A stretch of DNA of 64,000 bases, taken from the NCBI RefSeq assembly GCF_900115095.1, contig NZ_FOVH01000001.1, positions 62,001 through 126,000 on the forward strand. The letters are read 5' to 3'. This stretch comes from Actinomadura madurae (GTDB lineage Bacteria; Actinomycetota; Actinomycetes; Streptosporangiales; Streptosporangiaceae). A model generated the notes under the pieces. It was not told where the DNA came from, did no database searches, and saw nothing but the letters and a program-made list of their open reading frames with translations. Numbering within the stretch: the stretch's first letter is position 1; each line of letters begins with the position of its first letter. Made by a program: the position numbers and the translations under genes. Shown piece by piece: positions 10,587 to 63,706 of the stretch.

Positions 10587-10658
10587 TGGGGTATGGTGTA
10601 ATCGGCAGCACGAGTGATTCTGGTTCACTTAGTCTAGGTTCGAGTCCTGGTACCCCAG
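10587..10658 (+). tRNA. tRNA-Gln (CUG anticodon)
   Basis: The 72-base cloverleaf has acceptor TGGGGTA/TACCCCA and anticodon stem AGTGA/TCACT with loop TTCTGGT (CTG at 10620-10622). The T-loop is TTCGAGT and the discriminator is G at 10658. No CCA is encoded. This is a standard glutamine tRNA. Confidence 0.95.
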
Positions 10659-10682
10659 CTGCGTCCGCCTCACGCGGACCAC

Positions 10683-10755
10683 GCCCCCGTCGTCTAGTGG
10701 CCTAGGACGCCGCCCTCTCAAGGCGGTAACGGCGGTTCGAATCCGCTCGGGGGTA
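10683..10755 (+). tRNA. tRNA-Glu (CUC anticodon), copy 1
   Basis: The 73-base tRNA has acceptor GCCCCCG/CGGGGGT, discriminator A, a typical Glu D-arm (GTCTAGTGGCCTAGGAC) and anticodon loop CTCTCAA with CTC. It lies 24 bases after tRNA-Gln, probably in one transcript. An identical copy lies 350 bases downstream. Confidence 0.95.
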
Positions 10756-10814
10756 CGGGGCGGGTCGGTGTGCTCATCGAGCTTTGCTCGATTTCGCCGG
10801 GCCCGCAGTGTCTT

Positions 10815-10866
10815 CCCAGGGGGCGACCCCCTGGAACCCCCGGCTGTTCGGGCTTCGCCCGAACGT
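10815..10866 (-). repeat. G/C-rich palindromic repeat, divergent copy
   Basis: The stretch contains CCAGGGGGCGACCCCCTGG followed by a CCCCCGG block and a second hairpin, GTTCGGG-CTTCG-CCCGAAC. On the minus strand it reads CCGGGGG...CAGGGGGTCGCCCCCTGG, a five-G version of the repeat seen at 17904, 32561, 42722, 54161 and 61813. It fills part of the gap between the two tRNA-Glu genes; I see no gene there. Confidence 0.6.
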
Positions 10867-11032
10867 GGGTTGAGGCGTACGCATAGAGGGTTTCTCTGCG
10901 ACGTCCGAGTTTCGTTTTTTCCTTTCCGGTTTTGGGGTTTTGTGTGCCTTCCGAAAATCGGGTCGAGGTGGGGGTCGGGGTCCGGTAAGGTGGGGGGCGC
11001 CCGGGCGGGAGATCGCTGGGGTTCATAGTCCG

Positions 11033-11105
11033 GCCCCCGTCGTCTAGTGGCCTAGGACGCCGCCCTCTCAAGGCGGTAACGGCGGTTCGAATCCGCTCGG
11101 GGGTA
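11033..11105 (+). tRNA. tRNA-Glu (CUC anticodon), copy 2
   Basis: This copy is identical over all 73 bases to the tRNA-Glu at 10683-10755, so it is a recent or conversion-maintained duplicate. The surrounding sequence is unrelated. A stem-loop terminator follows 7 bases downstream. Confidence 0.95.
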
Positions 11106-11112
11106 CCACGCA

Positions 11113-37748: not shown

Positions 37749-38870
37749 ATGTCCCAGGTTTCTAGGATCCGCGTGGCCGTGGTCTTCGGCGGGCGCAGCT
37801 CCGAGCACGCGATCTCCTGCGTCACCGCGGGCGCCGTCATGGCCGCCATCGACCGGGACCGGTACGAGGTGGTGCCGGTCGGCATCGCCCGCGACGGGCG
37901 CTGGGTGCTCCCGCCCGCGGACCTGCGGCTCGCGATCGAGGACGGCCGGCTCCCGGAGGTGACCGGCGAGGGCGGCGTCCTGGCGCTGCCGTTCGACCCC
38001 GAGAGCCGCGGCCTGATGGTGGTCGAGCCGGGCAAGGTGCCCTCGACCCTCGGCGACGTCGACGTCGTCCTGCCGCTCCTGCACGGCCCCTACGGCGAGG
38101 ACGGCACGATCCAGGGCCTGCTCGACCTCGCCGGGATCCGCTACGTCGGCGCCGGGGTGCTGGCCAGCGCGGTCGGCATGGACAAGGGGTTCATGAAGCT
38201 CGTCTGGCAGGCGCGCGGCCTGCCCGTCGGCCCGTACGTCCTGGTCGGCGACCGGGAGTGGCGGCGCGAGCGCAAGCGCAAGATCGACGAGATCAAGGAG
38301 CTGGGCCTGGCCGCCGGGACCCCGGTGTTCGTCAAGCCGGCCCGCGCCGGGTCCAGCATGGGCATCACCCGCGTGACCGACGAGGCCGGGCTGGAGGCCG
38401 CGGTCGAGGCGGCCCGCGAGCACGACCCCAAGGTCATCGTGGAGGCGGCGGTCGAGGGCCGCGAGATCGAGTGCGGCGTCCTGCAGGGCGTGGACGACGG
38501 CCCCGCCGAGGCGAGCCTGCCCGCCGAGGTGCTGATGGCGGGCGGCCACGACTTCTACGACTTCGAGACCAAGTACCTCGACGGCTCCACCACCATGGCG
38601 ATCCCGCCGGACCTGCCGCCCGCCGCGATCGAGGAGGTCCGCCGCATCGCGGTGCAGGCGTTCGACGCGCTCGACTGCGAGGGCCTCGCCCGGGTCGACT
38701 TCTTCCACACGCCCGACGGCCGGTGGATCCTCAACGAGATCAACACGATGCCCGGCTTCACCCCGGCGTCGGCGTTCCCGCAGATGTGGGCGGCGACCGG
38801 GCTGGACTACCCGGCGCTGGTCGACCGGCTGATCCAGACGGCGCTGCGGCGGTCCACCGGGCTGCGCTGA
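37749..38870 (+). CDS. ddl: D-alanine--D-alanine ligase
   Basis: This 373-residue ATP-grasp enzyme has the family motifs: VVFGGRSSEHAISCVTAG, LHGPYGEDGTIQGLLDLAGI, PVFVKPARAGSSMGITRV, and NEINTMPGFTPASAFPQMW (Mg/ADP site). It makes the D-Ala-D-Ala end of peptidoglycan precursors. It follows gpsA by 56 bases, as in Streptomyces. Residues around the second subsite look like D-Ala-D-Ala rather than vancomycin-resistance D-Ala-D-Lac ligases, but I cannot settle this by eye. Confidence 0.96.
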   Translation: MSQVSRIRVAVVFGGRSSEHAISCVTAGAVMAAIDRDRYEVVPVGIARDGRWVLPPADLRLAIEDGRLPEVTGEGGVLALPFDPESRGLMVVEPGKVPSTLGDVDVVLPLLHGPYGEDGTIQGLLDLAGIRYVGAGVLASAVGMDKGFMKLVWQARGLPVGPYVLVGDREWRRERKRKIDEIKELGLAAGTPVFVKPARAGSSMGITRVTDEAGLEAAVEAAREHDPKVIVEAAVEGREIECGVLQGVDDGPAEASLPAEVLMAGGHDFYDFETKYLDGSTTMAIPPDLPPAAIEEVRRIAVQAFDALDCEGLARVDFFHTPDGRWILNEINTMPGFTPASAFPQMWAATGLDYPALVDRLIQTALRRSTGLR

Positions 38871-46408: not shown

Positions 46409-46535
46409 CATGCCGTTCCAGCGGGTCAAGGTCGCCGCCGTCCACCGCGCCGGAATGATCGCCGCCGGTGGCCGCGCGAGGCGTCCGGATATGCCAGGCT
46501 TATGGAGCCTGTTTCCCGTCCCGAGGAGAGCGTCC

Positions 46536-47990
46536 GTGCCTCACCCCGACCTGCCGGAGCGCATCGGCCCCTACCGGGTCGTGGACCGCCTCGGCGAGGG
46601 CGGCATGGGCACCGTGTACGCGGGGCTGGACACCTCGGGGCGCAAGGTCGCCATCAAGGTGATCCGGCGGGAGTTCGCCGCCGACCGCCAGTACCGGGCG
46701 CGGTTCCAGGCGGAGGTCGCGGCGGCGCAGCGGGTCCGGCCGTTCTGCACGGCGCCCGTCCTGGACGCCGACCCCGCCGCCGAGCCGCCCTACCTGGTGA
46801 CCGAGTTCGTCAACGGGCCGAGCCTCGACGCCAACGTGGTCAAGGAGGGGCCGCTGCGCGGCGCGGATCTGGAGGCCGTCGCGGTCGGCATCGCGACCGC
46901 GCTGACCGCCATCCACGACGCGGGCGTCGTGCACCGCGACCTGAAGCCCGCCAACGTGCTGCTGTCCACGTTCGGCCCGCGCGTCATCGACTTCGGCATC
47001 GCCCGCTCCCTGGACGGGACGCGCCTCACCGCGACCGGCGGCATCGTCGGCACCCCCGCCTTCATGGCCCCCGAGCAGCTGGACGGGCGCGGCGCGACCC
47101 CGGCGTCCGACGTGTTCGCCTGGGGCGCGACCGTGGCGTTCGCCGCGAAGGGCGGGCCCTGCTTCGGGGGCAACTCGATCCCGGCGATCATCCACCAGAT
47201 CGTCAGCGGCGAGCCCGACCTGAGCGGCCTGGACGGGACGCTGCTCGGCGCCGTCCGGGCGGCGCTGGCCAAGGACCCGGCGCGCAGGCCGTCCGCCCAG
47301 TCGCTGCTGGACGGCCTCATCTCCAGTGGCGTCCGCCAGCAGCCCGACCGATCCCGGACGTCCGCGCGGGAGCCCGTCCGGGAGCGCGCGCAGGCGCCGT
47401 CCCAGCAGTCCCAGTCCGCCCAGCAGGCGCCCGCCCGGCCGTCCGCGCAGTCCCGCGGCCCGCAGACGTCCTCGATCGTCCCGCCTCCGGCCTCGCCGCT
47501 CGCCGCGGGGGAGGCGGAGGCGCTCGTCGAGCGGCAGTACCGGCAGGCCGCGCAGGCCGGCGACCCGGCCGCCATGCGCAACCTCGCCGCGCTGCTCAAC
47601 GGGCAGGGGCGGACCGCCGAGGCGGAGACCTGGAACCGCTACGCCGACGCGATCGCCGCCCGCCCGTCCACCTACCCGCAGCAGCAGGCGGCGGCATACC
47701 AGGGGCATCCGGCGGCGCACCACCAGTACGCGGGCGGGTACCACCCGCACGCCAAGCCGCCCGTGAACAGCCTGGCGATCTACGCGGTCTCCATGGGCGC
47801 GGTGGGGCTGATCACGTGCGGGCTGCCGTCCATCCCCGCGATCGTCGCCGGGCACATGGCGTGGGTCCGGCTGCGGCGGTCCGGCGAACGCGGGCTGGGG
47901 CTCGCGGTGACCGGCATCGCCCTCGGCTGGATCATGGTCGCGCTCTGGGCGCTGATCGCCTTCGGCGCGGCGCTGCCGGACGAGCCCTGA
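46536..47990 (+). CDS. Ser/Thr protein kinase with C-terminal DUF4190-like membrane domain
   Basis: The start is GTG 46536, with GAGGAGAG upstream. The 484-residue protein has a PknB-like kinase domain (about 10-275): glycine loop GEGGMGTVYAG, VAIKVIRREF, HRDLKPANVLL, DFGIARS, GTPAFMAPEQ. A Gln/Pro/Ser-rich linker contains a short Sel1-like repeat (RQYRQAAQAGDPAAMRNLAA). Near the C-terminus are two TM helices (AVSMGAVGLITCGLPSIPAI, LGLAVTGIALGWIMVALWAL) in the DUF4190 pattern. The first base after the kinase gene is within a 15-base tandem duplication. Confidence 0.92.
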   Translation: MPHPDLPERIGPYRVVDRLGEGGMGTVYAGLDTSGRKVAIKVIRREFAADRQYRARFQAEVAAAQRVRPFCTAPVLDADPAAEPPYLVTEFVNGPSLDANVVKEGPLRGADLEAVAVGIATALTAIHDAGVVHRDLKPANVLLSTFGPRVIDFGIARSLDGTRLTATGGIVGTPAFMAPEQLDGRGATPASDVFAWGATVAFAAKGGPCFGGNSIPAIIHQIVSGEPDLSGLDGTLLGAVRAALAKDPARRPSAQSLLDGLISSGVRQQPDRSRTSAREPVRERAQAPSQQSQSAQQAPARPSAQSRGPQTSSIVPPPASPLAAGEAEALVERQYRQAAQAGDPAAMRNLAALLNGQGRTAEAETWNRYADAIAARPSTYPQQQAAAYQGHPAAHHQYAGGYHPHAKPPVNSLAIYAVSMGAVGLITCGLPSIPAIVAGHMAWVRLRRSGERGLGLAVTGIALGWIMVALWALIAFGAALPDEP

Positions 47991-48015: not shown

Positions 48016-48094
48016 CGTTGCGGCGCCCCATGATCGATGGCACCGTAGACGACGTCAGCCCGTCCAAGACGGAGCAGTGAGAGGAGGACCGGCC

Positions 48095-48169
48095 ATGGCT
48101 CTGGAGCAGTATCGACTTCGACTGCCCTCGGCGTCGCACGCCCGCCCCGGCCGGTATCCCGTCTCCTAG
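48095..48169 (+). CDS. Short reading frame upstream of the tRNA array
   Basis: ATG 48095 is preceded by GAGGAGGA with ideal spacing (about 8), among the best ribosome sites in the window. The 24-residue product begins MALEQYRLRLPSAS and ends RPGRYPVS. It contains four Leu codons or near neighbours (CTG, CTT, CTG) and two Tyr TAT codons, the amino acids read by the three tRNA anticodons that follow. It may be a leader peptide, a free microprotein or chance. No homologue recognised. Confidence 0.4.
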   Translation: MALEQYRLRLPSASHARPGRYPVS

Positions 48170-48218
48170 AGACCCTCGGCCGAGCCGCCGCGAGTGACGC
48201 CACCCTCGCGATCTTCTC

Positions 48219-48292
48219 GCGGCTCTACTCCAACCGGTAGAGAGGCCACTCTCAGGAAGTGGATGATCCGGGTTCGAATCCCGGGAGCCGCA
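48219..48292 (+). tRNA. Atypical tRNA with Leu (CAG) anticodon and short variable loop
   Basis: The 74-base gene has a perfect acceptor (GCGGCTC/GAGCCGC, discriminator A), T-arm CCGGG-TTCGAAT-CCCGG, and anticodon stem CCACT/AGTGG with loop CTCAGGA (CAG at 48253-48255). Bacterial tRNA-Leu is class II with a long variable arm; here only ATGAT (5 bases) lies between anticodon and T stems. The D-stem is only CTC/GAG. It is therefore a class I body with a leucine anticodon. Function unproven. Confidence 0.75.
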
Positions 48293-48297
48293 CGCCT

Positions 48298-48370
48298 GCC
48301 TCCGTAGTCCAACGGTAGAGACAGCGGCATGAGGTGCCGTGTGATGGGGGTTCGAATCCCTCCGGAGGTA
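48298..48370 (+). tRNA. Atypical tRNA with Leu (GAG) anticodon and short variable loop
   Basis: The 73-base gene has acceptor GCCTCCG/CGGAGGT (one G-T), discriminator A, T-loop TTCGAAT, and anticodon stem GCGGC/GCCGT with loop ATGAGGT (GAG at 48331-48333). The variable loop is GTGAT, 5 bases, again not a class II leucine tRNA. Its D-region (TAGTCCAACGGTAGAGA) is close to that of the preceding tRNA, pointing to common descent. It lies 5 bases after it. Confidence 0.75.
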
Positions 48371-48396
48371 CGACGCGGGCCGCCCGGCCCGCACGA

Positions 48397-48480
48397 GGGG
48401 CGGCGCCGACGCTCGGAGAGTCGGGCCTGGCTGTAACCCAGGTGTCTCGGACTGAGTGGGTTCGAATCCCACCCGCCCCA
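48397..48480 (+). tRNA. Atypical tRNA with Tyr (GTA) anticodon
   Basis: The 84-base gene has a perfect acceptor (GGGGCGG/CCGCCCC, discriminator A), anticodon arm CCTGG-CTGTAAC-CCAGG (GTA at 48433-48435), a class II variable arm (GTC-TCG-GAC inside 13 bases) and T-arm GTGGG-TTCGAAT-CCCAC. The D-arm is unusual: positions 8-9 are C-G rather than T-A/G, and the stem CCGAC/GTCGG has five pairs. It is third in the array, 26 bases after the second tRNA. Confidence 0.75.
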
Positions 48481-48488
48481 CCTCGCCG

Positions 48489-50132
48489 TCAGAGCGTCCG
48501 GACGGAGCCGAGCACCGCCTCCAGGTCGCCCTGCGCCGTGAACGCGTCCGGCAGGGACACCATCAGCACGCCCGGCTCCTCGCCGGCGCCGCGGTGGACG
48601 ACCAGGATCGCCAGGACGGCGGACGAGACCCGCCAGCCGTTCGCCCGTGCCTGCGGGAAGTCCAGCCGGATCTTCCGGAGCCAGGCCTCCCTCCCGTCGG
48701 CCGTCCGCCGCCGCCCCGACGGCAGCGCGGTGATCGAGTGCTGGACCGTGAACATCTCCCGGAGCATCCGCGCCTCGACGCGGTCGGCGACCGTCCGCGG
48801 TTCCACCGCCGCCGGATAGCCCTCGCTCTCGTCGGGGAGCGCCGGCCGGGAGAGGCTCGTGGCGTTGAAGCTCGCCCCGTTGACCGGCTCCTGCACGGGG
48901 GCGATCTGCCCCGCGGTGAACCCGCCGTCCCCGAGCCAGTTCGCGGGGGCCGCCACCCACGGCCGGCCGAGCCGGGCGTACGACAGCCCGGCCTCGGGGT
49001 CGTCGATCCGTCCCACCACCTGCGAGGACGCGCCGCCCGCCGGAGAGGAGGGCGTGCCGCCGGCGGATGCCGCCGCCGGGGACTTCGACGCGGCCTTCCC
49101 GCCCTGCCCGTCCAGGACGAGGGCCGCCGCCACCCCGGCGGCGAGGAGCACCAGGAGGGCCAGCGCGCTCGCGCCCGGGAGGAGCCATCCGCGTCCGGCC
49201 CGGCCCGCGGACTCCCGCGGAGCGGGCCGCCCCATGGGCGCGGCAGGGGCGAGGGCGGCGTCGAGGTCGGCCGCGGTCGCGGCCATGGCGGCGACCTCGC
49301 CGGGAAGCCAGCCGCCGCCGGGGTCCGGACCGCCGGCGGCGCAGCGGCTCAGCACCTCCGCCACGCCGGGACGGTCCGCCGGATCCTTGGCCAGGCATCC
49401 GGCGACCAGGTCGCGCAGCGGTGCGGGCACGGCCGCGAGGTCGGGCTCCTCGCCGACGATCCGGTACAGCAGCGCGGGGGCCGGACCCGTCCCGAACGGC
49501 GGGCGGCCCGCGGCGGCGTACGCCAGCACGGCGCCGAGCGAGAACACATCGCTCGCCGGGCCGATGCCGGAGGCGCCGCGGGCCTGCTCCGGCGACATGA
49601 ACGCCGGGGTGCCGGTGGTCGCGCCCGTCGCCGTCACGGGCGCCGACTCCAGGGCGCGCGCGATGCCGAAGTCGATGACGCGCGGTCCGTCCGGCGCGAG
49701 GATCACGTTGGCCGGCTTGAGATCGCGGTGCACGAGCCCGCACGCGTGCACGGCCGCGAGCCCCTCGGCCAGCCCGGCGCCGAGGACCCGCACCGCCGGG
49801 ACCGGCAGGGGGCCGTGGGCCTTGACCGCCGCCGCCAGCGACGGGCCGGGGACGTAGGCGGTGACGAGCCACGGCCGCTCGGCGTCCGGATCGGCGTCGA
49901 CGACCTGGGCGGTGTAGAAGCCGCCCACCCGGCGCGCGGCCTCAACCTCGATCTTGAACCGGCGCCGGAAGCCGGGGTCGGCGCCGAACTCGGGGCGCAC
50001 CATCTTCACGGCGACGGGACGGCCGCCCGCGGAGCGGCCGAGGAACACCTGCCCCATGCCGCCGCCGCCGAGCCGGCCCAGCAGCCGGTAGCCGCCGACC
50101 TGGTCCGGGTCGTCCGGTAGTAACGGATCCAT
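48489..50132 (-). CDS. Transmembrane Ser/Thr protein kinase
   Basis: The start is ATG 50132; ATG 50150 is an alternative. The 547-residue protein has a kinase domain (GGGGMGQVFLG, VAVKMVRPEF, HRDLKPANVILA, DFGIARA, TPAFMSPEQARG) over about residues 12-275. A TM helix follows (LLPGASALALLVLLAAGVAA) and an extracytoplasmic domain of about 180 residues (GRPWVAAPANWLGDGGFTAG, LREMFTVQHSITALPSGRRR). The outer domain is not PASTA. It is convergent with the tRNA array and divergent from the TetR gene. Confidence 0.92.
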   Translation of the reverse strand: MDPLLPDDPDQVGGYRLLGRLGGGGMGQVFLGRSAGGRPVAVKMVRPEFGADPGFRRRFKIEVEAARRVGGFYTAQVVDADPDAERPWLVTAYVPGPSLAAAVKAHGPLPVPAVRVLGAGLAEGLAAVHACGLVHRDLKPANVILAPDGPRVIDFGIARALESAPVTATGATTGTPAFMSPEQARGASGIGPASDVFSLGAVLAYAAAGRPPFGTGPAPALLYRIVGEEPDLAAVPAPLRDLVAGCLAKDPADRPGVAEVLSRCAAGGPDPGGGWLPGEVAAMAATAADLDAALAPAAPMGRPAPRESAGRAGRGWLLPGASALALLVLLAAGVAAALVLDGQGGKAASKSPAAASAGGTPSSPAGGASSQVVGRIDDPEAGLSYARLGRPWVAAPANWLGDGGFTAGQIAPVQEPVNGASFNATSLSRPALPDESEGYPAAVEPRTVADRVEARMLREMFTVQHSITALPSGRRRTADGREAWLRKIRLDFPQARANGWRVSSAVLAILVVHRGAGEEPGVLMVSLPDAFTAQGDLEAVLGSVRTL

Positions 50133-50179
50133 GCCGCACAGCCTTTCCATGCGCACAGCCTTGCCCAGCACCCCGGTTG

Positions 50180-50224
50180 TTGCCAACGGGTCGTTTCTGA
50201 ACTAATGTCTGGACACGTGTCCGG
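50180..50224 (+). promoter_or_regulatory. Promoter and operator of the TetR-P450 operon
   Basis: -35 TTGCCA (50180-50185), 17-base spacer, -10 TAATGT (50203-50208), 8 bases, then GTG 50217. The palindrome CTGGACACGTGTCCGG (50209-50224) covers the start codon exactly as in the aldA promoter. The layout predicts a leaderless mRNA and repression by blocking initiation. Confidence 0.75.
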
Positions 50225-50804
50225 GAAACAGCAGCTGACGACCGAGCCCACCCGCCGCCGCCTCACCGAGCGGCAGGCCGACACGGTGCGGCGGCTGACC
50301 GACGCCGCCGTGGTGGAGGTCGGCGAGGCCGGCTACGACGGGCTGACCGTCCGCAACGTGGCCCGGCGCGCCGGAGTGGCCCCGGCCACCGCCTACACCT
50401 ACTTCGCGTCCAAGAACCACCTGATCACCGAGGTGTTCTGGCGCCGGCTGAGCGCCCTGCCCCCGGTGGAGGCGGACGGGACGCTGCTCGAACGCGTGGT
50501 GGAGACGCTGCGCGAGATCGCGCTGCTGGTGTCGGACGAGCCGGAGCTGGCGGCGGCGTGCACCACCGCGCTGCTCGGCACCGACCCGGACGTCCGGGAG
50601 CTGCGGGAGCGGATCGGCGTCGCCATCCGCGAGCGGCTCCGCGCGGCGCTGCGCGACCACGACGACCCGAGGATCCTCGGCGCGCTGGAACTGGCCTACA
50701 CCGGCGCGCTGGTGCACGCGGGCATGGGCTACACGTCCTATGCCCGCATGGCCGACCGGCTCGCCGAGATGGCGGAGCTCATCCTGCCCGGACCCCCCGA
50801 GTGA
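50217..50804 (+). CDS. TetR-family regulator of the CYP51/aldA locus (Rv0767c-like)
   Basis: GTG 50217 is preferred over ATG 50205 because it aligns with the aldA start in the shared promoter; ATG 50205 would lie inside the -10 element. The 195-residue protein has the HTH GLTVRNVARRAGVAPATAYT-YF and a mixed helical ligand domain (ELALAYTGALVHAGMGY-like end). It is followed after 10 bases by the P450 genes. It probably represses both this operon and the aldA operon; the ligand may be a CYP51 pathway intermediate. Confidence 0.88.
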   Translation: MSGKQQLTTEPTRRRLTERQADTVRRLTDAAVVEVGEAGYDGLTVRNVARRAGVAPATAYTYFASKNHLITEVFWRRLSALPPVEADGTLLERVVETLREIALLVSDEPELAAACTTALLGTDPDVRELRERIGVAIRERLRAALRDHDDPRILGALELAYTGALVHAGMGYTSYARMADRLAEMAELILPGPPE

Positions 50805-50814
50805 GGTGACGGCC

Positions 50815-52011
50815 GTGGACCCTGCTGAGCAGGTCTCCTACAGCCCGTTCGACTACGCGGTCCACGAGGACCCCTACCCCCTCTACGCGCGTCTCCGCGA
50901 GGAGGCGCCCCTGTACCGCAACGACGAGATCGGCTTCTGGGCGCTGTCCCGGCACGCCGACGTCGCGGCGGCGTTCCGCGACCACGCCACGTTCTCCAAC
51001 TCCCACGGCGTCTCGGTCGAACCGAGCGCCTGGGGCCCGCACGCGAGCCGGACGATGTCGTTCCTGGCCCTCGACCCGCCGCGCCACACGCGCATGCGGG
51101 CGCTGGTGTCCAAGGGCTTCACCCCGCGGCGCGTGAAGGAGATGGGCGACGGCATCCTGGCGCTGACCCGGCGCCACCTGGAACCGGCTCTGGACAAGCG
51201 CGAGTTCGACTTCGTCGCCGACTTCGCCGGGCTGCTGCCCATGGACGTCATCTCCGAGATGATGGGCGTCCCCGAGGCGGACCGGGCGGAGGTGCGGCGG
51301 CTCGCCGACACCGTCGTCCACCGGGAGGAGGGGCTGAACGACGTCCCGCCCGCCGGGATGGACGCGGCGCTCACCCTCGCCGGCTACTACCAGGACATGG
51401 TGGCCGAACGCCGCCGCAGGCCGGCGGACGACCTGACGTCCGCGCTGCTGGAGGCCGAGGTCGACGGCGACCGGCTGGACGACACCGAGGTCATCGCGTT
51501 CCTGTTCCTGATGGTGGTCGCCGGGAACGAGACCACCACCAAGCTGCTGGCCAACGCGCTGTACTGGGGGTCGCTGAACCCGGACCAGGCCGCCAGGCCG
51601 CTCCGCGACCCGGCCCGCGTGGACGACTGGGTGGAGGAGACGCTCCGCTACGACACCTCCAGCCAGATGCTCGCCCGCAAGGTCGTCAAGGACGTCGAGC
51701 TGCACGGGAAGCGGGTGCCCGCGGGCGACCGGATGCTGCTGCTCGTCGGGTCGGCCAACCGCGACCCCCGCGCCTTCGAGGACGCCGACACCTACGACCT
51801 CGACCGCGACACCTCCCGGCTCGTCAGCTTCGGCGGCGGGCGGCACTTCTGCCTCGGCGCCAACCTGGCCCGGCTGGAGGCCCGCATCGCGCTGGCCGAG
51901 CTGGTGCGGCGCGTCTCGTCCTACGAGGTCGACCACGGCGGCGCCGAGCGGGTGCACTCGGTGAACGTCCGCGGTTTCGCCTCGCTGCCCGTCCGTGTGG
52001 AGGTGCGCTAG
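50815..52011 (+). CDS. cyp123: Cytochrome P450, CYP123-like
   Basis: The start is GTG 50815 (GAGGTGA upstream). The 398-residue P450 has the oxygen-binding helix (VVAGNETTTKLLANALYWG), E-x-x-R (VEETLRYDTSSQMLAR) and the haem loop FGGGRHFCLGANLARLE with the Cys ligand. Gene order and sequence style match Rv0766c (CYP123) of mycobacteria. It probably uses the ferredoxin encoded at 54229. Its stop overlaps the SDR start by one base. Confidence 0.85.
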   Translation: MDPAEQVSYSPFDYAVHEDPYPLYARLREEAPLYRNDEIGFWALSRHADVAAAFRDHATFSNSHGVSVEPSAWGPHASRTMSFLALDPPRHTRMRALVSKGFTPRRVKEMGDGILALTRRHLEPALDKREFDFVADFAGLLPMDVISEMMGVPEADRAEVRRLADTVVHREEGLNDVPPAGMDAALTLAGYYQDMVAERRRRPADDLTSALLEAEVDGDRLDDTEVIAFLFLMVVAGNETTTKLLANALYWGSLNPDQAARPLRDPARVDDWVEETLRYDTSSQMLARKVVKDVELHGKRVPAGDRMLLLVGSANRDPRAFEDADTYDLDRDTSRLVSFGGGRHFCLGANLARLEARIALAELVRRVSSYEVDHGGAERVHSVNVRGFASLPVRVEVR

Positions 52012-52786
52012 TGCCCCGGTTCGATCCCCATCCCGAGCGGCGGCCCGCCGTGGTGACCGGCGCGTCGTCCGGGATCGGCGCCGCGACCGCCACCGCCCTG
52101 GCGATGGCCGGGCATCCGGTCGCGCTCGGCGCGCGGCGCCTGGAGAAGTGCGAGGAGCTGGCCGCGACGATCCGGGCCGGCGGGGGAGAGGCGTTCGCCC
52201 ACCCGCTGGACGTCGGCGACTCCGACTCGGTCAAGGCGTTCGCCTCCGCCGCGCAGGACGCGCTCGGGCCGGTCGAGGTCGTCGTGTCCAGCGCCGGCGA
52301 CCTGGCCGCCGGACGCCTCCACGAGATCGACTCCGAAGACTTCCTCGCGCAGACGCAGGTCCACCTCGTCGGCGCGCACCGCCTCGTGTCGCACTTCGTC
52401 CCGCGGATGGTGGCGCGGCGCCGCGGCGACATCGTGTTCATCTCCTCCGACACCGTCCCCGCCCCGCGCTCCTGGACGGGCGCCTACGTCGCGGCCAAGA
52501 GCGGCGTGGAGGGCATGGCCCGCACCATGCAGATGGAGCTGGAGGGGACGGGGGTGCGGGCGTCCATCGTCCGGCCCGGACCCACCGCGACCGGCATGGG
52601 CATGACCTGGGACGCCGAGACGACCGGGGCCGTCCTGGAGGACTGGGTGAAGTGGGGCCACGCCCGGCACCCGTACTTCCTGCGCCCGTCCGACGTCGCC
52701 GCCGCCGTCGCCGCGGTCGTCGCGACCCCGCGCGGCGCCCATCTCCGGCTCGTCGAAGTACAGCCCGAAGCCCCCTTGGAGGAATC

Positions 52787-52790
<4 letters not shown>
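52011..52790 (+). CDS. SDR-family oxidoreductase (Rv0765c-like)
   Basis: This 259-residue classical SDR begins with GTG 52011. Motifs: VTGASSGIGAATATALAMAG, the Asn-Ala-Gly-like VSSAGDLAAGRL, IVFISSDTVPAPRSWTGAYV with Ser, and AYVAAKSGVEGMART (Y-x3-K), RPGPTATGMG. It overlaps the CYP51 start (ATGA). It probably oxidises or reduces the product of one of the P450s. Confidence 0.9.
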
Positions 52791-54974
<2,184 letters not shown>

Positions 54975-61795: not shown

Positions 61796-63706
61796 TCAGC
61801 GGGTCCGGTCCGGTTTCCTGTGGGGGGACGACCCCCCACTCCCCCCGGAAGAGCAGGCCGGTCCGGCTCCCTCCGCTCCGCTGGAGCTCCGCTCCGGGAA
61901 CCGGTCCGGCCGCCGCTCCCGCCGGTAGAGGGCCTCGATCTCCTCCGCGTACCGCTCGGCGATCGCCCGCCGCCGCAGCTTGTTCGTCGGAGTCAGTTCC
62001 GCGCCGCCCGGGGTCCACGTCTCCGGCAGGATCTGGAAGTCCTTGATCTGCTCGACCCGCGACAGCGTCGCGTTCGCGCGCGCGACCCCCGCCTCGACGG
62101 CCGCGCGCATCTCGGGGGCGCGGGCGAGCACCGCGACGTCCTCGCCGCCGGCGATGCCGCGCGCGTCGGCGAAGGCCCGCGCGGCGACGGGGTCGAGGGT
62201 GATCAGCGCGACCACGTAGGGGCGGCGGTCGCCGACCGCGATCACCGAGCCGACCGGCGGGCAGGAGGCCAGCACGGCGTTCTCGATGTTGGCCGGCGAC
62301 ATGTTCTTGCCCGAGGTGTTGACGATCAGGTCCTTCTTGCGGTCGACGATCGTGACGTACCCGTCGGCGTCGACCGTGCCCACGTCGCCGGTGTGCAGCC
62401 AGCCGTCCGCGTCGATCGCCTCGGCCGTCCGCTCCTCGTCCCCGCGGTAGCCCCGCATCAGCGTCGGCGCGCGGAGCAGCAGCTCCCCGTCGGCCGCCAC
62501 CCGCACCTCGACGTCCCGCATCGGCCGGCCGACCGTCCCGGGCCGTATTCCGCCCGGAAGGTTGATCGCCCCGGCCGCGGACGACTCCGACATCGCCCAC
62601 CCCTCGCACAGCTCGATGCCGAGCGACTGGAAGAACCGGACGGCGTCGGCGGCGATCGGGGCGGAACCGGTGATGACCGCGTCCGCCCCGTCCAGGCCGA
62701 TCCGGGCGCGGAGCCGCCGCAGCACCAGCCGGTCCGCGGCGGCCCGCCGGACCGCCAGGCGGGCCGGGAGCGCGCGGCCGGAGGCCCGCCGGTCCGCGGC
62801 CTCGCGGCCGACGCGGACGGCCCAGCCGGCGAGGCGCCGGCGCGGGCCGCCCTGCGCGTCGATCGCCTGGGTGAGCGCGGCCTGGATCCGGTACCAGAAG
62901 GCCGGGACGCCGAGGAAGACGGTCGGCCGAACCGCGGGCAGCACCTGGGCCACGCTCTTCAGGTCGGCCACGGTGGTGATCGAGGAGCCGCCGGCCATCG
63001 CCAGGTAGTGGCTGAAGTACCGGTTGGCCACGTGCGCGTCCGGAAGGTAGGAGACCAGGCGCCCGGCCCGTGCGCCCGCACCCACGTGGGGGAGCGCGAG
63101 GCCGCTGCGCAGGCACGCGAGGATCGCGCGGTGCTCCACCTCGACGCCCTTCGGCGGCCCCGTCGTCCCGGAGGTGTAGATCAGGGTGACCAGGTCCTCG
63201 GGGCCCACCGCCCGCCAGCGGGCCTCGAAGTCGAACGACTCCGGAGTCCGGTCTTCGAGGTCGGCCAGCGTCAGCGCGCCCTCGGCCGCGCCGTCGACGC
63301 AGACGACGTGCTCCACCGCCCCGCCCGCGGCGCGGACCGCCGGCACCCACTGCCGCTCGGTCACCACGACCCGGTTGCCGGCGTTGGAGAACAGGTGGGC
63401 GATCTGCGACGGCGGGCTCGTGTTGTAGACCGAGAAGGGCGTGGCGCCGAGGTGCAGCGCGGCCGTGTCCACGAGATGGAATTCGGGACGGTTGGTGAGC
63501 ATGAGCGCCACCGTGTCCCCATGGCGGACGCCGAGCGAGGCGAGGCCGCCGGCGATCCGCCGCACACGCTCGGCGTACTCCCGCCAGGTGAGCTCCACGG
63601 CGCCGTCCGAAGAGCGAAGGGCGACCTGCCCGGCCCGCGCTCCGGCCGTGCGCTGGAAGAGTTCGGCGAGGCTCCGCACCGACTCCGGGACGTCTCTGGA
63701 TTCCAT
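61796..63706 (-). CDS. AMP-forming long-chain acyl-CoA ligase (FadD15-like), extended tail
   Basis: This 636-residue protein has the ANL superfamily motifs: YTSGTTGPPKGVEVEHRAIL, the adenylate-binding SIGIELCEGWAMSESSA, HTGDVGTVDADGYVTIVDRK and VNTSGKNMSPANIE. The usual family ends near RRAIAERYAEEIEALY. Here about 42 more residues follow, including [16 protein letters not shown], encoded by the palindromic repeat at 61813-61851. It activates a fatty or branched acid for the neighbouring CoA-linked steps. It is convergent with the AraC gene. Confidence 0.93.
   Translation of the reverse strand: MESRDVPESVRSLAELFQRTAGARAGQVALRSSDGAVELTWREYAERVRRIAGGLASLGVRHGDTVALMLTNRPEFHLVDTAALHLGATPFSVYNTSPPSQIAHLFSNAGNRVVVTERQWVPAVRAAGGAVEHVVCVDGAAEGALTLADLEDRTPESFDFEARWRAVGPEDLVTLIYTSGTTGPPKGVEVEHRAILACLRSGLALPHVGAGARAGRLVSYLPDAHVANRYFSHYLAMAGGSSITTVADLKSVAQVLPAVRPTVFLGVPAFWYRIQAALTQAIDAQGGPRRRLAGWAVRVGREAADRRASGRALPARLAVRRAAADRLVLRRLRARIGLDGADAVITGSAPIAADAVRFFQSLGIELCEGWAMSESSAAGAINLPGGIRPGTVGRPMRDVEVRVAADGELLLRAPTLMRGYRGDEERTAEAIDADGWLHTGDVGTVDADGYVTIVDRKKDLIVNTSGKNMSPANIENAVLASCPPVGSVIAVGDRRPYVVALITLDPVAARAFADARGIAGGEDVAVLARAPEMRAAVEAGVARANATLSRVEQIKDFQILPETWTPGGAELTPTNKLRRRAIAERYAEEIEALYRRERRPDRFPERSSSGAEGAGPACSSGGSGGSSPHRKPDRTR
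61813..61851 (-). repeat. Palindromic repeat copy in the acyl-CoA ligase tail
   Basis: Minus strand: CTTCCGGGGGGAGT followed by GGGGGGTCGTCCCCCC-ACAGG. The frame used encodes GGSGGSSP, as in LeuC. Upstream of it (61860-61910) lie further GGAGCGGAGC units like the left flank of the copy at 17904. Confidence 0.85.

Follow-up and report, generated by a model that had tools for sequence, protein, structure and literature searches.

A divergent Leu-Leu-Tyr tRNA operon of Actinomadura madurae that is probably controlled by ribosome-mediated attenuation

The control of tRNA genes in bacteria is usually ascribed to growth rate and the stringent response, and bacterial T-box leaders are known to link tRNA charging to transcription. 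Attenuation by a leader is known in Actinobacteria for amino-acid genes and for the synthetase genes leuS, trpS, alaS and thrS (PMC8079986, PMC1262725); attenuators precede aminoacyl-tRNA synthetase genes in S. lividans (PMC8079986) and have been predicted before synthetase genes in Actinobacteria (PMC1262725). Mycobacteria, their phages and their plasmids also possess tRNA array units, which are clusters of extra tRNA genes (PMC5966550), and that paper's main text makes no mention of a leader, attenuation, a promoter or a terminator. No earlier description of tRNA genes controlled by leader attenuation was found in the literature searched, most subscription papers lying outside that search.

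The window analyzed here is the whole stretch of 64,000 nucleotides from A. madurae (positions 62,001 to 126,000 of contig NZ_FOVH01000001.1). A first-pass annotation had described three tRNA genes with Leu, Leu and Tyr anticodons in this DNA, and all three are present where it placed them, as found by ARAGORN and, for the first two, by Rfam:

48219-48293, plus strand: tRNA-Leu (CAG), by ARAGORN and Rfam RF00005; class I body of 75 nt with a Leu-type D-arm and A73.
48298-48371, plus strand: tRNA-Leu (GAG), by ARAGORN and Rfam RF00005; class I body of 74 nt with a Leu-type D-arm and A73.
48397-48482, plus strand: tRNA-Tyr (GUA), by ARAGORN; class II with an unusual D-arm.

The RF00005 scores are 54.8 bits (E 4.8e-9) for Leu-CAG and 51.5 bits (E 3.9e-8) for Leu-GAG. 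The Rfam tRNA model gave no report of the tRNA-Tyr (GUA) in the window, so that this gene rests on ARAGORN; its only Rfam showing is a sub-threshold tmRNA-like match of 24.9 bits (gathering score 47), which is in keeping with its odd D-arm. Read by eye, the gene has the class II arm and odd D-arm that had been claimed for it, namely a long arm together with a C at position 8 and a 5-bp D-stem CCGAC/GUCGG. The class I bodies of the Leu genes are likewise borne out: both lack the long variable arm of canonical bacterial tRNA-Leu and have a short variable loop and a length of 74-75 nt, compared with 84-90 nt (as printed by ARAGORN) for the class II Leu-CAG, Leu-GAG, Leu-UAG and Leu-CAA of the same genome (L042, L041, L036 and L037, respectively). 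By eye, both share their D-arm with the genome's class II Leu tRNAs (3-bp stem, mismatch 13-22, AA..GGYAGA loop), and A73 is common to them and the canonical Leu tRNAs. Because the genome has canonical copies for all three anticodons (CAG, GAG and GUA), the cassette tRNAs are second, divergent copies. The cassette comprises these three genes only and is not the dense many-gene cluster of a tRNA array unit. Elsewhere in the window, at 10587-11108, a tRNA-Gln (CUG) and two tRNA-Glu (CUC) are canonical in shape, as had been noted before, and the two tRNA-Glu copies are identical over their Rfam match.

Mitochondria have class I tRNA-Leu, and the cassette genes resemble these in being Leu tRNAs that lack the long variable arm; unlike mitochondria, the bacteria considered here keep class II Leu tRNAs too. 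Leu-UAA genes were found at only two places in the genome, L136 (C19:1209199-1209271) and L137 (C29:535066-535138), and these too are class I; a family-wide genome search revealed class I tRNA-Leu in many genera of the family. Thus, class I tRNA-Leu is a trait of the lineage at family level and is not specific to the trio. The genome-wide tRNA search gave 79 matches, and none of the 12 of class II length, all of which were fetched, is a Leu-UAA gene; the same search missed the tRNA-Tyr of the window, so a class II Leu-UAA gene could escape it. If L136 and L137 are the sole Leu-UAA genes, UUA codons would be read by class I tRNA-Leu only. Codon-specific mistranslation, one of the roles first proposed for the trio, is not favored, since the Leu-type D-arm and A73 are kept (by eye) and since the class I form of the only Leu-UAA genes found implies that this lineage seems to use class I tRNA-Leu.

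The first-pass annotation delimited the locus at 48095-48480, and while its tRNAs were right, the start of that span is the ATG of a conserved 24-codon ORF with a strong Shine-Dalgarno sequence that went unmentioned. The elements preceding the tRNA genes are as follows:

48018-48046, plus strand: putative promoter, read by eye, with -35 TTGCGG (48018-48023), a 17-nt spacer and -10 CACCGT (48041-48046) after TGG.
48080-48088, plus strand: Shine-Dalgarno sequence AGAGGAGGA preceding the leader ORF and kept in almost all of the 30 homologues compared.
48095-48169, plus strand: leader ORF of 24 aa, MALEQYRLRLPSASHARPGRYPVS followed by the stop, with Leu codons CTG, CTT and CTG and Tyr codons TAT and TAT.

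The leader ORF is present in all 68 fetched loci that have a Leu tRNA, 66 of them distinct after two duplicates were dropped (70 loci were examined, of which L114 and L115 lack a Leu tRNA). Among the 66 homologues the leader peptide is 17-29 aa long, and the stretch before a nearly invariant CGACTG switches between Leu and Tyr codons, position 10 being Y in 25 and L in 25, position 12 being L in 37 and Y in 21. Tyr is encoded by TAT 98 times and by TAC 10 times, and CGA encodes Arg 108 times; TAT and CGA would count as rare codons in such GC-rich DNA. Third codon positions in the leaders are no freer than other positions, because the same bases are constrained by RNA structure. The promoter-like GTTGC...GGCA(C/T) layout repeats upstream of other divergent tRNA genes in the genome. 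One spacing of this layout gave 6 genome matches at up to 2 mismatches, compared with 5 for a reversed control pattern, and the three matches with 0-1 mismatch all precede divergent tRNA genes (those of C30 and C18 and the Asn gene of C50); the putative promoter of the window has a different spacing and lies outside these 6.

A query of 401 bases spanning the small ORF and the tRNAs matched all 35 relatives of the same genus (best matches at 68-91% identity, a number of them partial), none of 4 genomes of the same order outside the genus, and 7 of 19 of the same class with short pieces only. A family search for the trio in related genomes, as the earlier annotation had advised, matched 157 of 341 genomes, among them 64 of the 65 genomes of the genus (own included), some of them partially, so that the cassette is not a chance feature. 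The sole genus miss, G290, showed no cassette by a second query either, and the partial matches include G032 (53 bases) and G306 (leader and Tyr only). In the latter (L341, G306:C1:2639200-2640100) the leader and tRNA-Tyr are kept, both Leu genes are gone and unrelated sequence stands in their place. Near-complete cassettes occur in the other genera g26, g27, g28 and g84, and a search of the named genome collection with a leader-start pattern gave 38 stretches, 37 in Actinomadura and 1 in Thermomonospora echinospora. A D-Ala-D-Ala ligase gene lies at 37749-38870 of the window, and relatives of it (77-96% identical) lie upstream of the cassette on the same strand, at 2.1-9.4 kb, in 17 of 19 other neighborhoods; it is the only neighboring ORF of the window with relatives in most of these 19. 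The cassette thus has a fixed chromosomal place. Within the window, Ser/Thr protein kinase genes at 46410-47990 (with a DUF4190 domain) and 48489-50186 face each other across the cassette, and 50740-54974 holds two adjoining cytochrome P450 genes together with a gene whose SnoaL-like match falls below threshold.

The codons of the leaders follow the tRNA content of the operon. Among the 66 distinct homologues, a Tyr codon is found in the leader of all 61 operons with a linked tRNA-Tyr and in none of the 5 without one (L029, L069, L070, L106 and L107; Fisher 1.1e-7), where linkage means lying within 150 nt of the preceding tRNA, a limit set after L106 had been seen to have a Tyr gene 333 nt downstream, such that a wider limit makes L106 the one exception. 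In L069, with the operon Leu-Leu-Phe-Arg-Gly-Lys-Leu-Ser-Val, the leader is MKRLLDRLSRSSLGLRGGVR, and 18 of the 19 residues after the start are cognate to tRNAs of the operon by hand count.

It was predicted beforehand that other divergent second-copy operons of the genome should carry matching leaders, and such leaders were found:

C18 of the same genome, operon Ser-Met-Arg-His: leader MRGHRVHSSPSGRGSRRRT.
C30 of the same genome, operon Asp-Cys-Arg: leader MSCLSCHRGDRPRTRTRATRRAAR.
C19 of the same genome, operon Gly-Gln: leader MTAINAQQAPQPLGAGPRRGFAVAGIASG.
C12, array of 18 tRNAs (L130, G000:C12:260635-262637): leader VIRLTAEPKLWNCAFQRRGGCVISGVASG, read by eye.

The leader of the C12 array holds every non-Met isotype of that array; the automatic choice for L130 was another, wrong ORF, and the leaders of L130 and L239 were both read by eye. 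The array itself runs from Trp to Arg and consists of 18 divergent tRNAs, one of them a further class I Leu-CAG; its own leader and a long perfect hairpin precede it. No small leader ORF was found by the same scan at nine other tRNA loci of the genome (L132-L140). At L128, positions 957-1030 encode a tRNA-Arg whose anticodon, GCG, is unusual for bacterial tRNA-Arg and would read CGC and CGU without inosine. The Glu-UUC tRNA-like gene of L134 has an abnormal T-loop, lies behind a similar promoter-like stretch and is perhaps decayed.

Across the genus, the Ser-Met-Arg-His query matched 62 of 65 genomes, Asp-Cys-Arg 65 of 65 (many via one tRNA only) and Gly-Gln 43 of 65, and the best 30 loci of each query were read; for Asp-Cys-Arg, the Rfam model served to check the tRNA counts at 20 of these 30. 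Within these best-30 sets, Lys is present in the leader at 4 of 4 loci with tRNA-Lys and 0 of 17 without, Asp at 10 of 10 with tRNA-Asp and 4 of 16 without, Cys at 22 of 22 with tRNA-Cys and 1 of 4 without, and Gln at 16 of 16 with tRNA-Gln and 3 of 5 without. The sole Cys leader without a named tRNA-Cys is that of L190, where a Cys-like tRNA whose loop has 8 bases received no name from ARAGORN. For Val, Phe, Arg and Ala, the residue is commoner where its own tRNA is present, yet it also occurs where the tRNA is absent. In g61, a second genus, matches came from 35 of 54 genomes, with the operon Ala-Gly-Leu-Glu-Arg(-Tyr-Cys) and variants of it, and in the 26 of 30 loci read none of 126 isotype slots is missing from the leader.

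In the 173 loci kept, the leaders represent 514 of 518 tRNA isotypes, leaving 4 misses, whereas 2000 shuffles of the leaders missed 173.6 on average and never fewer than 142. These shuffles overstate independence because the loci are related, yet the changes fall in separate operon families and genera. Shuffles within families never reached the observed misses in the Asp-Cys-Arg, g61, Gly-Gln and Leu-Tyr families. They were not informative for Ser-Met-Arg-His, where operon content scarcely varies, or for two sets of very small size. Three of the four misses are Met, for which the start codon was disregarded, and the fourth is Phe in L069. Most of the Met tRNA is lost in L174, while the leader has kept an internal Met codon.

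Leader ORFs were picked by Shine-Dalgarno score and position, with a C-terminal motif added for the Gly-Gln and g61 families; the rule took an unrelated upstream gene in several Gly-Gln loci, and at L281 accepted none automatically, though a leader is present. L294, L296 and L297 were excluded from the shuffle count for their single or unclear tRNAs, and their candidate ORFs would add no miss. Fourteen loci without an accepted leader were dropped before the counts (L165, L200, L203, L205, L207, L211, L220, L224, L225, L229, L231, L232, L234 and L236). Of these, L165 is a selection failure with a normal leader, which leaves 13 leaderless Gly-Gln or Asp-Cys-Arg loci. At the nine leaderless Gly-Gln loci the tRNAs follow a promoter-like stretch, and L200 and L203 show an apparent decayed tRNA. 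A terminator was found at none of the 13 by the strict scan and at 4 by the looser one (L200, L203, L224 and L236), while L205 and L207 keep a strong hairpin that lacks a U-tract; thus, leader and hairpin are not always lost together. No candidate leader ORF was seen at 5 of 13 loci of other genera (where L098, L102 and L127 are hand-picked examples), and no convincing one at most of the Leu-UAG and Tyr-only loci examined.

Searches of plasmid and phage DNA gave single-tRNA similarities only, and these led to an array (L339/L124) with a run of at least 24 tRNA genes on a contig of 198,862 bases that is taken as a plasmid. Its leader is MISKAAQMQPCRQPWHSALFGDAIAPRQASG, ending ASG, with a terminator-like hairpin by eye, suggesting that the control device also travels on plasmids. 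The Gly-Gln, C12-array and many g61 leaders end in SG directly before the stop (mostly ASG), and the C19 and C12 leaders share the DNA tail TCTGGATAG; these shared endings and this tail suggest a common antiterminator element.

The transcript between the leader codons and the tRNA genes of the window has the potential to form three helices:

48130-48137, plus strand: 5' arm of helix H1, GGCGUCGC, inside the ORF just after the Leu/Tyr codons.
48196-48201, plus strand: 3' arm of helix H1, GACGCC, from alignment and consensus fold.
48148-48182, plus strand: inner helix H2, CGGCCGG (48148-48154) with CGGCCG (48177-48182), across the stop codon; by eye and minimum-energy fold.
48189-48218, plus strand: helix H3, CGCGAG (48189-48194) with CUCGCG (48205-48210), then AUCUUCUC; terminator-like and overlapping H1.

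Six core pairs of H1 are each kept in 46-48 of 48 aligned sequences and a seventh is G-U, G-C or A-U in 45, the alignment having left out 18 of the 66 leaders; the consensus fold did not choose H2. Comparison of homologous sequences thereby establishes the leader, its match to tRNA content and a conserved H1, whereas the switch between H1 and H3 is a computed one. With the ribosome edge set 12 nt past the A site and residues counted after Met, folding of the window gave H1 probabilities of 0.98-0.99 and H3 probabilities of 0.00-0.01 for a ribosome at residues 1-7, and H1 of 0 and H3 of 0.81-0.97 for a ribosome from residue 12 to the stop, H3 being 0.96-0.97 from Ser13. The computed change falls between residues 8 and 12, at the end of YRLRL, such that in this model Leu2, Tyr5 and Leu7 can work the switch and Leu9 (H1 0.01) and Tyr20 (H1 0) cannot. 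Among the 56 of 66 leaders that were scored (the motif was not located in 10), the computed H1 exceeds 0.5 in 53 when the ribosome is stalled. When no ribosome is present, the computed H3 is 0.50 in the window, with H1 about equal, and H1 dominates in several homologues. Because H1 is often the default when no ribosome is present, and because a ribosome at the stop codon leaves the 5' arm of H1 unmasked, the switch must be kinetic. The tail of H3 is U-poor, making it a weak terminator candidate, and few U follow H3 in many homologues; termination at H3, the last step in the window cassette, is therefore uncertain.

Intrinsic terminators are present in several sister operons. Among Ser-Met-Arg-His loci, 28 of 29 have a hairpin and U-tract separating the leader from the tRNAs, as do 15 of 26 Asp-Cys-Arg loci and 13 of 21 Gly-Gln loci; in other genera a terminator occupies the same place at 4 of 13 loci (L088, L102, L126 and L127). 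Since the looser scan, with loops of up to 15 nt, missed L130 and L131, a stricter fold-based scan was added. In the own genome the stricter scan found a terminator in L128 and L131, not in L129 and L130, and none in 16 other tRNA loci (L132-L147); the looser scan flagged L128, L129 and the odd Glu locus L134. The hairpin of L130 is long and perfect with a short U-tail. In computed folds of truncated transcripts, the 5' arm of the terminator is pre-paired upstream upon an early stall with probabilities of 0.78 in L128, 0.85 in L130 and 0.65 in L131, falling to 0.33, 0.50 and 0.34, respectively, with the ribosome at the stop, although the trend in L131 is not monotonic and full-length folding of L128 and L130 always favored the terminator. 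For the Gly-Gln leader of L131, the computed terminator probability is 0.09-0.35 at the Gln codons and 1.00 at the stop, and Gly codons 13 and 15 barely or not at all lower it.

The locus is probably a tRNA operon under ribosome-mediated attenuation, having a short ORF with a ribosome-binding site upstream, codons that match the product and hairpins that exclude one another, the last as computed. RNA polymerase would start near 48053, a position derived from the putative -10, and a ribosome would translate the 24-codon leader. When Leu-tRNA or Tyr-tRNA is scarce, the ribosome would stall at the first Leu/Tyr codons, just upstream of GGCGUCGC, in which case H1 would form and exclude H3 and transcription would continue into the tRNA genes. 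When these tRNAs are plentiful, the ribosome would sweep through GGCGUCGC, H3 would form and the transcript would presumably end, or be mis-processed, before the tRNAs. Each spare tRNA operon would thus measure the shortage of exactly the tRNAs encoded there, and a spare tRNA is probably produced only under a shortage of its own kind. The scheme would entail termination at H3, induction, charging by LeuRS and TyrRS, and a purpose of restoring translation after tRNA loss or damage.

What the spare tRNAs are for is a further matter. Amino-acid starvation is disfavored as the purpose, since more uncharged tRNA would not relieve it, and loss of or damage to the canonical tRNA would for that reason be the most sensible trigger. 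This bears on the proposal that the genes are backups resistant to anticodon nucleases, as the first-pass annotation had already suggested, or to other tRNA-attacking toxins, and are switched on when a canonical tRNA is cut. That they are second, divergent copies beside canonical genes has held up, and the leader ORF makes expression on demand likely, so the idea of backup tRNAs pointed in the right direction. Resistant backups are a credible if tentative reading: tRNA loss is the trigger that would make the loop sensible, the tRNA bodies are divergent, and two papers report phage tRNAs that evade host tRNA cleavage (PMC10264068, PMC11555353). The class I body, however, also occurs in the genome's only Leu-UAA genes found, where no leader was seen, and body type alone therefore does not mark a resistant backup. 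Alternatively, the operons may fit tRNA supply to codon demand during growth or differentiation, stalling reporting high demand and damage playing no part. Such a role in ordinary supply is possible but rather doubtful; it would employ the same leader logic and sits well with the cassette being inherited vertically within the genus, with its conserved place on the chromosome and with the shared promoter layout, and damage as a trigger has no showing in the present analysis, but the spare tRNA bodies differ from the canonical set, which simple extra dosage would not need.

Two further explanations fit the comparative evidence poorly. That the genes are decaying mobile or phage tRNA genes devoid of function is very unlikely; related tRNAs do occur in arrays, one of them on a plasmid, and the Leu genes of G306 have been replaced by other sequence, but leader, helices and tRNA order are conserved genus-wide at a fixed chromosomal place and leader residues change along with tRNA content. 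Non-ribosomal chemistry, another role first suggested for the trio, is not favored, and it is extremely improbable that the tRNAs donate aminoacyl groups to peptide or natural-product chemistry, the small ORF supplying the peptide substrate. A short conserved peptide does adjoin dedicated tRNAs, but its sequence follows tRNA content with no fixed core, terminators lie between ORF and tRNAs in sister operons, and the only widely shared neighbor among the 20 neighborhoods is the gene for D-Ala-D-Ala ligase, which is not known to use tRNA.

The backup reading, extended to the whole family, is that a second, divergent set of tRNAs is kept in operons, each guarded by its leader, as a modular self-repair loop for the tRNA pool by which translation survives tRNA-destroying toxins, phages or defense systems; this is a possibility that falls somewhat short of probable. 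If each leader senses the tRNAs under its own control, the result is a direct feedback loop on tRNA supply, isotype by isotype. It would provide a testable reason for the extra, odd-looking tRNA genes and arrays in Actinobacteria and their plasmids, and the leaders would be natural sensors for single aminoacyl-tRNAs.

Several described systems share parts of this arrangement. T-box leaders likewise tie tRNA charging to transcription, while sensing here would be by a translating ribosome, and no T-box (stem I with a T-box sequence) was reported in the window at Rfam gathering scores. The C12 array of this genome resembles the tRNA array units, from which the window cassette differs in being three tRNAs and a leader. 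Replacement tRNAs of altered sequence are likewise reported from phages, where they evade host defenses directed at tRNA (PMC10264068, PMC11555353), although the spare tRNAs described here are chromosomal, conserved in a bacterial genus and, to judge from their leaders, apparently induced by shortage. The locus also resembles trpL, leuL and ilvL and the leuS, trpS, alaS and thrS attenuators of Streptomyces, with which it shares a short leader ORF rich in regulatory codons. Its predicted competing hairpins are likewise those of ribosome-mediated attenuators, in which an intrinsic terminator is often present, and relief by stalling would be a further common point. Unlike the known attenuators, the regulated genes here are tRNAs, and a single leader carries codons for several isotypes, its composition following the tRNAs of the operon.
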